In this document: piece by piece, positions 25,104 through 29,433 of the stretch
How positions within the stretch are numbered: position 1 is the stretch's first letter
How the letters are laid out: each line of letters starts with the position of its first letter
Source: Salsipaludibacter albus
GTDB lineage: Bacteria > Actinomycetota > Nitriliruptoria > Nitriliruptorales > Nitriliruptoraceae
Length of the DNA: 64,000 nucleotides
Direction: 5' to 3'
Assembly: GCF_019798055.1 (NCBI RefSeq)
Contig: NZ_JAHOPH010000009.1
Coordinates: forward strand, 62,001-126,000
The notes under the pieces: generated by a model
Database searches by the model: none
Seen by the model: the letters and a program-made list of their open reading frames with translations, nothing else
What the model was told of the DNA's origin: nothing
Made by a program: the position numbers and the translations under genes

Positions 25104-26288
25104 TCAGGGTCGCGGCACCCGGCCGTCGTCGAGCCCGGCCTGCCACCCCGCCACCGCGGTCCTGCAGTCCTCGACCGTGGGCACCAGTGCCAGTCGCAGC
25201 CAGCCGGCCCCGGCCGGCCCGAACGACCGGCCCGGCGAGGCCACGACCCCGGCGCCCAGCAGGGCCTCGGCGTGGCCGACGTCGTCGCCGTCCGGCGCCG
25301 CGAACCAGACGTAGAACGTCGCGGTGCTGTCCAGCACGTCGTAGCCGGCGGCGGACAGGAAGCCGGCCACGACGTCGCGCTTGTCCCCGAACACGGCGCG
25401 CCGGTCCGCGACGTGCTCGTCGTCCTGCCAGGCCACGGTCGCCGCCGCCTGCACGAAGTCCTGCGACGCCGTCCCGAAGTTCGGCCGCAGCAGCCGCTGG
25501 GTGCGCAGGACCGCGGCGTCGCCCACCAGTGCGCCGGAGCGATAGCCGGTCATGCCCGAACGCTTCGACAGCGACACCGTGGCCACAACCCCGGTCGGGT
25601 CCCCGTCCACGGCCTCCAGCACCGAGGGTGGCGGGGTGTTCCCGAACCACACCTCCTGGTAGCACTCGTCCGAGCACAGCAGGATGTCGTGCGCCCGTGC
25701 CACCGCCACCTGGTCGCGCCAGTAGGACAGGTCGGCCTCCGCGCCGGTCGGGTTGTGCGGGTAGTTCAGCCAGGCGATGGCGGCGGCGTCCAGGCGATCG
25801 TCGTCCAGCGTGGCCAGGTCCAGCAGCCAGCCACGGTCGTCGCGCAGGGTCACCGGGTCGGACCGGCCGCCGGCGAGCAGCGCGGAGCGGCCGTACACGG
25901 GGTAGCCCGGGTCGCCCCAGATGACCGACCGCCTGTCCGCGTCCGGGTCGATGATCGCGAACGGGAGATGGAAGATCGCCTCCTTGGAACCTGCGGTCGG
26001 GAGCACCTGGGTCGCGGGGTCGACCCAGTCCACTCCGTGGCGACGGGCGAAGAAGCCGGCCACGGCGGCCCGCAGCCCGGGCTGCCCGTAGGTCGTCGGG
26101 TAGTCCGAGACGGGACCGACCGCGTCGACCAGGGCTCGGCGCACGAACTCGGGCGTGGGCTCGTCGGGGTCCCCGATCGAGAAGTCGTGCAGCACGGCGC
26201 CGGCCGCGCGCAGGTCCGTGACCCGGTGACGCAGTTCCTCGAGGGCGTAGGCCCCGATCTCGTCCAGTCGGGGGTTGCGAGTGACCAT
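25104..26288 (-). CDS. dapC: Succinyldiaminopimelate aminotransferase
   Basis: A 394-residue class I/II PLP aminotransferase. FSIGDPDEPTPEFVRRAL at the start, WLNYPHNPTGAEADL, CSDECYQEVWF and VSLSKRSGMTGYRSGALVG (Schiff-base Lys) are all present. This pattern matches actinobacterial DapC, which forms N-succinyl-LL-DAP, and the neighbours dapD and dapE use the succinyl route. ATG at 26288 is chosen; the longer open frame upstream is only antisense of the tyrA region. Another aminotransferase function cannot be excluded, but the context is strong. Confidence 0.88.
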   Translation of the reverse strand: MVTRNPRLDEIGAYALEELRHRVTDLRAAGAVLHDFSIGDPDEPTPEFVRRALVDAVGPVSDYPTTYGQPGLRAAVAGFFARRHGVDWVDPATQVLPTAGSKEAIFHLPFAIIDPDADRRSVIWGDPGYPVYGRSALLAGGRSDPVTLRDDRGWLLDLATLDDDRLDAAAIAWLNYPHNPTGAEADLSYWRDQVAVARAHDILLCSDECYQEVWFGNTPPPSVLEAVDGDPTGVVATVSLSKRSGMTGYRSGALVGDAAVLRTQRLLRPNFGTASQDFVQAAATVAWQDDEHVADRRAVFGDKRDVVAGFLSAAGYDVLDSTATFYVWFAAPDGDDVGHAEALLGAGVVASPGRSFGPAGAGWLRLALVPTVEDCRTAVAGWQAGLDDGRVPRP

Positions 26289-26430: not shown

Positions 26431-27192
26431 GTGACCACCGCCTGTGTCGCCCCGCCCAGCGACGCCGCCCGTTCGGCGGCGGCCCTGGTGCTGGGCGAGG
26501 GCGTCGCGCGTGGTGCGGCCCTGATGCCCGACGCCGACACGGCCCTGCGCGCCGTCGCGGCGGGGACCTGTGAGGTCGCGGTCGTGCCGTGGGAGGACTC
26601 CCACGCCGGGACGGCGACCGACACCGTGGACGCGCTCGTCTTCACGCCCGGCGACCTCGTGGTGTGCGCCGAGGTCGACCGCGTCGAGGACGGACGCACC
26701 ACGCGCTGGGTGGCGGTCCGCGCGGCCGACGACGCCGCCCGCCCGGCCGTGGGCGACCGCGTCCAGACCCTGCTGTTCGCGGTGCCCCACCTCAACCGAC
26801 CCGGGTCGCTGACCGAGATGCTCGCGGCCTTCTCGTCGCGTGGCATCAACGTGACCCGGTTCGAGCCCCGCCCGCTCCACGCCGCCCTGGGCATGTACGG
26901 CTTCCTGCTGGAGGTCGAGGGCCACCCCGCGGATCCGTGGCTGGCCGACGCGCTCGCCGACCTGTTGACCGCCTCGTCGGTGGTCACGCACCTGGGGACC
27001 TGGGAGGCCGGGACCCGGGCGTGGTCGGCGGTGACCGGGCGCGCGCCAGAGGGCCCGGTCGTGCGCGATCGTGCGGACGTGGTGGCGCTGGGGGAGCGGT
27101 GGTCGCCCGCGACCACGTCCCGGGACACCGACGGGTCTGGCGGAGCCGAGCCGGCAGGGCCGGTTCCGGACGCCGACCGGGTCGACCCATGA
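26431..27192 (+). CDS. Prephenate-dehydratase-like protein with ACT domain, lobe II absent
   Basis: A 253-residue protein with the first lobe of prephenate dehydratase in reduced form (DADTALRAVAAGTCEVAVVP then WEDSHAGT, in place of PIENS), then directly DGRTTRWVAVRA (the TTRF strand), then a full ACT domain (LFAVPHLNRPGSLTEMLAAF, RGINVTRFEPRP). About 80 residues, the second catalytic lobe, are missing, and the GPEGT start of lobe I is replaced by APPSD. GTG at 26431. The stop overlaps tyrA (ATGA). The ACT half suggests phenylalanine binding; catalysis is doubtful. Confidence 0.75.
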   Translation: MTTACVAPPSDAARSAAALVLGEGVARGAALMPDADTALRAVAAGTCEVAVVPWEDSHAGTATDTVDALVFTPGDLVVCAEVDRVEDGRTTRWVAVRAADDAARPAVGDRVQTLLFAVPHLNRPGSLTEMLAAFSSRGINVTRFEPRPLHAALGMYGFLLEVEGHPADPWLADALADLLTASSVVTHLGTWEAGTRAWSAVTGRAPEGPVVRDRADVVALGERWSPATTSRDTDGSGGAEPAGPVPDADRVDP

Positions 27193-28133
27193 CGGTCGGG
27201 GTCGTCGGGCTCGGCCTCCTGGGCGGGTCGATCGCGCTGGAGCTCGTGGGGCTGGGCGACCACGTCGTCGGCCACGACCCGGACCCGGACACGGTCGCCC
27301 GCGCGGCGACGCGCGGCATCGAGATGCTCGACGACCCGGCCGCGGTCGCGGCCGCCAGTGACCTGGTCGTCGTCGCGACCCCGATCGCGCACGTGCCCGG
27401 ACTGGTGGAGGAGGTTGCCCACGGCGGGGCCACGGTGACCGACGTCGCCTCGGTCCGCGCCCCCGGGGCCCTGGGGTTCGACCCGGACACCGCCCCCGCC
27501 AACTGGGTCGGTGGCCATCCCATGGCGGGAACGGAGCGTCGAGGGTTCGCCGCGGCCCATCGTGGCCTGGTCGTCGGGTCGCCGTGGTTGCTGACCCCCC
27601 ACGACGCGATCGATCCGGGGGCGCTGGTCGACGTCGTCGAGCTCGCGCTGCGGCTGGGTGCCCGACCGCTGGTCCTCGACGCCCACCTGCATGACACCGT
27701 GGTGGCGACCACCAGCCACCTGACCCACCTGCTGTCGTGGGCCCTGCACGCCGACGCCCGCAGCCTGGGCACGGGCGTCGTCGACCACCTCGCCGGGCCG
27801 TCGTTCCGGGACGCGACCCGCGTCGCCGCGAGCTCGCCGGAGTTCTGGGCCGACCTGCTGGGACGCAACCGCGACGCCGTCCGCCTCGCGCTGGACCGCG
27901 TCCGTGACTGGCTGGACGCGACCGTCGCGGCCCAGCAGGACGACCTCGTCGCGCGGCTCGCGGCGGCCCAGCGGGTCCCGGGCCCGCCGTCCGCCCCGTC
28001 CGAGACCGTGACCGTCGACCTGGCCGATGTCGCGACGGCACTGGCCGACCTGCGTCGCGCCGGTGCGGCTGGCCGCGCCATCACCGGCATCGCTACCGTC
28101 GGCGATCGTCCGGGCCTGCTCGTCTCGTCCTAG
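27189..28133 (+). CDS. tyrA: Prephenate dehydrogenase
   Basis: A 314-residue NAD(P)-dependent prephenate dehydrogenase for tyrosine synthesis. The nucleotide-binding GLGLLGGSIALEL opens the protein, GGHPMAGTERRGF is the prephenate-binding signature, and HDTVVATTSHLTHLL contains the conserved substrate His. ATG at 27189 overlaps the upstream ACT-domain gene by four bases, so translation is coupled and the two may interact. No own ACT domain is present, which would suit regulation in trans by the neighbour. Confidence 0.92.
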   Translation: MTVGVVGLGLLGGSIALELVGLGDHVVGHDPDPDTVARAATRGIEMLDDPAAVAAASDLVVVATPIAHVPGLVEEVAHGGATVTDVASVRAPGALGFDPDTAPANWVGGHPMAGTERRGFAAAHRGLVVGSPWLLTPHDAIDPGALVDVVELALRLGARPLVLDAHLHDTVVATTSHLTHLLSWALHADARSLGTGVVDHLAGPSFRDATRVAASSPEFWADLLGRNRDAVRLALDRVRDWLDATVAAQQDDLVARLAAAQRVPGPPSAPSETVTVDLADVATALADLRRAGAAGRAITGIATVGDRPGLLVSS

Positions 28134-28173: not shown

Positions 28174-29433
28174 ATGACCGTCGACTCCGCCGACCCGGCC
28201 CCCACGGGGCGCACCGTGCTGATCCGGGTGTCCGGCCACGACCGCCCCGGGATCACCGCCGGCCTGCTGGAGCTGCTGGCCGGCCACGACGTGGACGTCT
28301 ACGACATGGAACAGGTCGTCGTTCGCGAACGGCTCACCCTGGACGTGTTGGTCGGGGTGTCCGGAGGTGACGACTCGCTCAAGGACGCCCTGTTCTGGGC
28401 CTTCGAGTCCGGGGTGCAGCTGGACTTCGAGATGGTCGAGCCGACCTCGACGCGGGCCGGCCTGCCCCGCACGGTGGTCACGACCGTGGGTTCCCACGAC
28501 CGGATGACACCGGCCGCCCTGGGGGCCATCACGCGCGCGATCGCGGCCGCCGGCGGCAACATCGACCGGATCCTGCGTCTCGCGCGCTACCCCGTGCGAT
28601 CGTTCGAGTTCGTCGTGGTCGACGGCGACTCTGACGAGCTTCGCACCAGGGTGGTGGAGGCCAGCGCCGAGCACGGCGTGGACGTCGCGGTCCAGCGTGG
28701 GGACATCGTCCGACGGGGCAGCCGGCTGGTGGTGATGGACGTCGACTCCACGCTGATCCGCAACGAGGTCATCGACCTGCTCGCCGAGGAGGTCGGCGTG
28801 CGCGACGAGGTCGTCGCGATCACCGAGTCGGCGATGGCGGGTGAACTCGACTTCGCGACGTCCCTGCGCCGCCGGGTCGCGCTGTTCGCCGACGTGCCGG
28901 TCGAGGTGCTCGACCGCGTGTACGAGCGCGTCGACCTCACGGCCGGGGCCCGCACGTTCGTGCGCACGCTCAAGCGGCTGGGCTTCAAGGTCGCGCTGGT
29001 GTCCGGCGGCTTCGGCAGCGTCGTCCGCCGGCTCGCCGACGACGTGGGGGTCAGCCGGGTGGCGGCCAACGAGTTGGAGGTGGTGGACGGCCGACTCACG
29101 GGGCGGCTCGTCGGCGAGATCGTGGACCGGGCAGGCAAGGCCCGGGTCCTCGAGTCCTTCGCCGCCGCCAACGACATCCCGATGTCCCAGACGGTCGCGA
29201 TCGGGGACGGGGCCAACGACCTCGACATGCTGGCGGTGGCGGGGCTGGGCATCGCGTTCAACGCCAAGCCGATCGTGGCCGAGTCGGCCGACACCGCCAT
29301 CACCGTGCCCTACCTCGACGCGATCCTGTTCCTGCTCGGGATCCGACGCGAGGAGGTCGAGGCCGCCGACGTCGCCGACCCGGCGGTCGAGACCAACGGC
29401 CTGGTCGCGATCCCGGGGACCCCGCCCGCCTGA
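28174..29433 (+). CDS. serB: Phosphoserine phosphatase with two ACT domains
   Basis: A 419-residue HAD enzyme that hydrolyses phosphoserine to serine. Residues 1-170 form two tandem ACT domains (SGHDRPGITAGLLELLAGHD, SHDRMTPAALGAITRAIA), likely serine sensors as in mycobacterial SerB2. The catalytic part has DVDSTLIRNEVIDLLAEE with the nucleophile Asp, VSGGFGSVV, and GDGANDLDMLAVAGLGIA. ATG at 28174, 40 bp after tyrA, so possibly the same operon. Identification is secure. Confidence 0.95.
   Translation: MTVDSADPAPTGRTVLIRVSGHDRPGITAGLLELLAGHDVDVYDMEQVVVRERLTLDVLVGVSGGDDSLKDALFWAFESGVQLDFEMVEPTSTRAGLPRTVVTTVGSHDRMTPAALGAITRAIAAAGGNIDRILRLARYPVRSFEFVVVDGDSDELRTRVVEASAEHGVDVAVQRGDIVRRGSRLVVMDVDSTLIRNEVIDLLAEEVGVRDEVVAITESAMAGELDFATSLRRRVALFADVPVEVLDRVYERVDLTAGARTFVRTLKRLGFKVALVSGGFGSVVRRLADDVGVSRVAANELEVVDGRLTGRLVGEIVDRAGKARVLESFAAANDIPMSQTVAIGDGANDLDMLAVAGLGIAFNAKPIVAESADTAITVPYLDAILFLLGIRREEVEAADVADPAVETNGLVAIPGTPPA

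Follow-up and report, generated by a model that had tools for sequence, protein, structure and literature searches.

The window analysed in this study, a whole stretch of 64,000 nucleotides from Salsipaludibacter albus, contains a short pheA-like gene that overlaps the start of tyrA, raising the question of what a reduced prephenate dehydratase (PDT) does when its gene is joined in this way to the gene of a prephenate/arogenate dehydrogenase. The short PheA-like protein is referred to as PheAs, a name coined here. The preferred reading, to which a probability of about 60% is given, is that PheAs is a catalytically dead PDT descendant that regulates the co-translated TyrA as a subunit able to sense an amino acid.

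The short pheA-like gene and the full-length PheA

26431..27192, + strand: PheAs, the short PheA-like gene, encoding PDT lobe I, an ACT domain and a non-conserved tail, in this order (253 aa)
27189..27192, + strand: ATGA, the tyrA start over the PheAs stop (TGA at 27190-27192, ATG at 27189-27191)

The sequence-only reading that preceded this analysis had described a short PDT-like reading frame translationally overlapping tyrA, and this description stands: the frame at 26431-27192 runs from a GTG start to a TGA stop over 253 aa, with TGA and the ATG of tyrA sharing ATGA. In the sister species (G001), the overlap is GTGA, in frame with tyrA, for which an alternative ATG start lies 33 bases downstream. 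The NCBIfam PDT model PRK11898 matches PheAs with E=1.1e-25 and 90 bits (cut-off 219), PF00800 reaches 23 bits (cut-off 25.2) over residues 32-82, covering positions 28-76 only of the 181 in the profile, and PF01842 reaches 20.6 bits, slightly below its curated cut-off, over residues 122-178. At the level of sequence, the resemblance to PDT is beyond chance. Substitutions relative to the sister species fall 53/61/103 across the three codon positions and dN/dS is 0.42; this codon-position bias and the dN/dS value support the coding status of PheAs.

A search for a full-length pheA elsewhere in the genome, as had been proposed, located one on another contig (G000:C23), with a PF00800 score of 173.6 bits over profile positions 2-179 of 181. 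The sister species carries both forms in the same gene order, the short form being 63% and the full PheA 83% identical, and full-length PheA is encoded in all 28 loci (L005-L032) drawn from other genomes. Since the same genome has a normal full-length PheA, PheAs does not serve as the dehydratase of the cell. Both genomes of the genus carry a normal pheA apart from the short gene, and the full-length gene on a separate contig rules out PheAs as the active or sole PheA; the situation named beforehand as fatal to a regulatory role, namely the short form being the only PheA in relatives, was examined and did not hold.

The short form was found in 2/66 genomes of the class (G000 and G001) and in the same two of the 396 genomes of a phylum sample, a count that leaves out the second PF00800 matches of six genomes, and G231. 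Two PF00800 matches occur in eight of these 396 genomes, namely G000, G001 and six others. A widespread short form was ruled out, as the phylum matches with E<=1e-17 in G217, G315 and G390 are full-length PDTs. In the tree, the two short forms fall on a branch 6.27 long that lies apart from every full-length PheA. Separately, the sole PDT match of G231, an 81%-complete genome of the phylum sample, is weak (7.8e-7), and this genome may hold another reduced PheA; G002 (L006, L066) and G034 (L032, L067) have two full-length PheA genes apiece.

Lobe I, the missing lobe II and the ACT domain

26431..26724, + strand: lobe I, residues 1-98, delimited by alignment to the genome's own PheA (AF2 block pLDDT 81-89 over residues 1-50)
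26680..26709, + strand: junction of the deletion (residues 84-89, predicted to form a hairpin) and, after it, TTRW at residues 90-93, the counterpart of TRF
26761..27006, + strand: ACT domain, residues 111-192, predicted beta-alpha-beta-beta-alpha-beta, with NRPGSL and EPRP (77% identity between the two species)

The active-site motifs of PDT are GPxGT and PIEN(S/T). They read GPAGT and PIENT in the own PheA of the same genome, APPSD and PWEDS in PheAs, and APATD and AFEDS in the sister-species PheAs, so that both are altered in either species; the altered lobe I motifs noticed from the sequence are thereby confirmed. A TRF-type motif sits after lobe II in a normal PDT. Both short forms have TTRW at this place, which matches only loosely because W replaces F.

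In the own PheA, lobe II is flanked by the strands EAELEL (hinge, from residue 76) and NTTRF (return, from 178), and in PheAs the corresponding AEVD (from residue 80) is joined to TTRW via the predicted hairpin. A whole-sequence MAFFT alignment misplaced TTRW into lobe II, and a HMMER alignment with GqqA, a PDT, assigned it to the return strand, pairing PheAs residue 86 with GqqA residue 86 and residue 89 with GqqA residue 172. With TTRW kept, lobe I of PheAs is complete including its return strand, and lobe II has been cut out cleanly at the lobe hinge. PheAs has no two-lobed PDT domain scoring above the PF00800 cut-off. The reported absence of lobe II is therefore borne out, although the size of about 80 residues given for it was too small; the net deficit is ~92 residues relative to the own PheA and ~85 relative to GqqA.

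The ACT domain belongs to the PDT type, as judged from its predicted beta-alpha-beta-beta-alpha-beta order, NRPGSL (NRPGVL in the sister) and EPRP, and the closest PDB sequence match of PheAs is a PDT (3mwb, E=5.8e-21); its identity to the ACT domain of full-length PheA is ~40%. The earlier claim of a complete ACT domain thus holds for the predicted fold, with the qualification that the ligand motifs have changed from ESRP to EPRP and from GAL to GSL here (GVL in the sister). Because these motifs are altered, ligand binding by PheAs is an assumption. Altogether, PheAs resembles PDT (PheA, PF00800 plus PF01842) in having the lobe I fold, a TRF-like motif and an ACT domain in the same order, but differs in lacking lobe II, in its altered GPAGT and PIENT, and in being encoded next to tyrA in a genome that also has a normal pheA.

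AF2 models were built from two-row alignments and are of low confidence overall (mean pLDDT 55.4 for PheAs and 51.3 for TyrA); they served only to read local secondary structure and, cautiously, to compare folds. The best match of the low-confidence PheAs model was 3mwb in its Phe-bound form (Z 12.9, rmsd 11.1, 177 residues), and the same model also matched the 194-residue chain of 7ALZ (Z 8.5, rmsd 11.7, 171 residues), a match that is to be read domain by domain because of its rmsd. The 7ALZ structure, SeGqqA from Komagataeibacter europaeus, provides a close precedent: SeMet GqqA lost residues 86-170 through proteolysis during crystallisation, and the remaining lobe I and ACT domain retained both their fold (C-alpha rmsd 0.76 A) and their binding of L-Phe (PMC8192741). 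The GqqA fragment indicates that folding and amino-acid binding are possible for a PDT lacking lobe II, whereas a two-lobed active site cannot form. The PheAs gene encodes nearly this fragment, with the difference that the loss in SeGqqA was a crystallisation artefact, whereas in PheAs the part is missing from the gene. According to one account (PMC8192741), the two lobes of PDT enclose the active site in a cleft between them. There is good support for the view that PheAs derives from an enzyme without being an active dehydratase, both from the absence of lobe II with its share of the cleft and from the normal PheA in both genomes.

TyrA, its truncated tail and the history of the locus

27189..28133, + strand: tyrA, prephenate/arogenate dehydrogenase, 314 aa (PDH_N 77.8 bits, PDH_C 60.3 bits)
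28005..28127, + strand: half-ACT-like tail of TyrA, residues 273-313, predicted beta-alpha-beta-beta, without the paired RPG...N(I/V)ED signature
25104..26288, - strand: aminotransferase gene (dapC), divergent left neighbour and left border of the variable site
28174..29433, + strand: serB-like gene, right border of the variable site

The window's tyrA encodes the only TyrA above the Pfam cut-off in its genome (a single PF02153 match over the cut-off). TyrA was extracted from 44 genomes of the class, and 41 C-termini were readable (G059, G060 and G014 being left out); an ACT signature, RPG...N(I/V)(E/A)D, is present in 35 of them and absent from six (G000, G001, G003, G008, G019 and G025). No Pfam ACT domain was detected in these six, for which the G028 control was itself weak (0.00023, below the cut-off), and their tails align with the first half of an ACT domain. 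The window TyrA tail was modelled as beta-alpha-beta-beta with a block pLDDT of 64-68, again in a low-confidence model. The statement that TyrA lacks an ACT domain of its own is accordingly right in that no complete ACT is present, and needs amending in that a truncated, half-ACT-like tail remains. Half-ACT TyrA occurs in both PheAs genomes and also in four genomes without PheAs (G003, G008, G019 and G025), which rules out a perfect swap in which TyrA loses its ACT only alongside PheAs. TyrA can thus lose its full ACT without PheAs, and a half-ACT TyrA does not require PheAs.

The genes flanking PheAs-tyrA, which we take to be dapC and serB, are the same in both species, and all six half-ACT tyrA genes sit between them. 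Among the 17 genomes with a divergent dapC-serB pair, the window's included (G009, G044, G046, G047 and G038 were left out, the pair not being seen there), this site holds PheAs and tyrA in two, tyrA alone in four, unrelated genes (640-1771 bp) in four, and only 36-143 bp in seven. The unrelated inserts, named by eye, are a DinB-like frame (G005), lipoprotein-like frames (G004, G015) and a large secreted repeat-like frame (G035). The family site of tyrA is scpA-scpB-rluB-aroH-tyrA-aroA-cmk/der, the names other than tyrA being presumed from the families of these genes. In G003, G008 and G019 the family cluster reads aroH-aroA with tyrA missing, and in G000 and G001 aroH directly adjoins cmk, with tyrA and aroA both missing from the family site.

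In a tree of full-length TyrA, the TyrA of the window's genus falls inside the ACT clade. A core-only tree groups it with G003, G008, G019 and G025 (85/75, not starred and carrying a long-branch warning), and an AU test did not reject a grouping with G011 either (p 0.442). The trees appear compatible with both a single relocation and separate relocations of tyrA. As to the order of events, we infer that tyrA moved and its ACT decayed, and that PheAs arose later or in parallel, in one genus. With respect to aroA, the gene of the window's genus lies on another contig and its product has just 47-50% identity to the family form; additionally, AroA of G007, G002 and G035 (L102, L108, L110) is 29-31% identical to that of G028 within the same gene cluster, which suggests replacement in place.

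A proposed regulatory role and its alternatives

Compared across the two species, PheAs and TyrA have diverged alike, with dN/dS values of 0.42 and 0.42 and identities of 63 and 62%, against dN/dS values of 0.20 for SerB, 0.135 for DapC and 0.19 for the full PheA. The ACT domain is the most constrained part of PheAs (dN/dS 0.24, compared with 0.54 for lobe I). The joint fast evolution of PheAs and TyrA could reflect local relaxation, though dapC and serB are without such a signal.

Because half of the catalytic part has been lost and the amino-acid sensor kept, PheAs probably controls the neighbouring TyrA. In the proposed mechanism, PheAs would dimerise via its ACT domain, an aromatic amino acid would bind at the dimer interface as in PDT ACT domains, and PheAs would contact TyrA, possibly via lobe I or the half-ACT tail of TyrA, so that the bound amino acid would tune the prephenate flux into tyrosine; translational coupling would set the PheAs:TyrA stoichiometry. 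The ligand could be Phe or equally Tyr. The regulatory role claimed in the sequence-only reading is favoured indirectly, by the gene order and stop-start overlap in both species, the alike fast divergence, the constrained ACT, the truncated ACT of TyrA, the full PheA elsewhere, the clean excision and the disappearance of tyrA from the aroH-tyrA-aroA site. It is weakened by the four relatives whose half-ACT TyrA has no PheAs, by the restriction of PheAs to two genomes and by the altered ACT motifs; on balance, it remains the probable reading.

Two alternatives keep a function for PheAs and relocate it. PheAs might act on the full-length PheA, forming mixed dimers through its PDT-type ACT that alter Phe feedback and coordinate both branches through co-expression with TyrA; the best solved match (3mwb), the pairing of ACT domains in PDT dimers (PMC8192741) and the presence of PheA in both genomes would fit, yet PheAs is coupled to tyrA and not to pheA, shares its fast rate with TyrA while PheA evolves slowly, and its ACT has fallen to ~40% identity with that of PheA, so that we consider this unlikely. 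Quite unlikely is a role in TyrA folding, stability or co-translation without sensing, with the lobe I and ACT fold as a scaffold. The gene overlap, the changed ligand motifs and the retention of lobe I without its catalytic partner lobe agree with such a role; nevertheless, conservation is highest in the ACT core, NRPG and E-P-RP included, and the half-ACT TyrA of G003, G008, G019 and G025 has no such partner.

A functionless, decaying duplicate of pheA is suggested by the fast evolution, the lost domain and the single genus, but is improbable given that the frames are intact in both species, that dN/dS is below 1 and just 0.24 in the ACT, and that the excision is clean at the lobe hinge with the tyrA overlap retained. 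The least credible reading is that PheAs is still an enzyme, either a minimal dehydratase or one of other activity: TTRW and the lobe I core are kept, and GqqA is presented as a PDT scaffold that gained another activity (PMC8192741), whereas one of the two lobes that would enclose the active site is absent, neither species has kept GPAGT or PIENT intact, and a normal PheA exists.

Returning to PheAs as a subunit of TyrA, we advance more tentatively the evolutionary account that a PDT which had shed one catalytic lobe was turned into an allosteric subunit dedicated to acting in trans on TyrA after the TyrA ACT had decayed, with a sensor taken from the competing Phe branch and one amino acid cross-regulating the sister pathway. 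If true, related genomes display the stepwise passage from a cis regulatory domain to a trans subunit: TyrA first carries a fused ACT and is encoded at the family site, next has a half-ACT and is encoded at a new site, and then gains a PDT-derived sensor. It would also be a further case of an enzyme turned regulator, in which, unusually, the donor enzyme serves the competing branch of the same metabolic fork. The PheAs/TyrA pair is small and readily testable in vitro, and a 'prephenate dehydratase' annotation of such genes would assign the wrong function.

Dead-enzyme regulatory subunits are already known as a kind, with HisZ as an example; HisZ is enzyme-derived, being related to histidyl-tRNA synthetase. 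PheAs likewise descends from an enzyme, with its catalytic site gone, and is encoded with its presumed catalytic partner, overlapping tyrA in both species. HisZ, the regulatory subunit of the short-form ATP phosphoribosyltransferase, is described as non-catalytic, activating its catalytic partner and mediating amino-acid feedback (PMC9734150), and PheAs is proposed to work in the same manner, with PDT as its source and TyrA as its partner. A literature search over titles and abstract openings of open PMC papers returned no lobe-II-less PDT acting as a TyrA regulator, and a PDT-derived TyrA subunit would be a new case. In TyrA-ACT fusions, the ACT is described as an in-cis sensor through which TyrA responds to aromatic amino acids, and 'PheB' of B. 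subtilis as a free-standing ACT protein (PMC1173090). Different from the fusions, the complete ACT of PheAs lies on a separate PDT-derived protein; the separate encoding of an ACT domain is shared with 'PheB' and with the AHAS small subunits (IlvN/IlvH). To our knowledge, the AHAS small subunits have no PDT lobe I, unlike PheAs, and their ACT folds also align with the AF2 model of PheAs.
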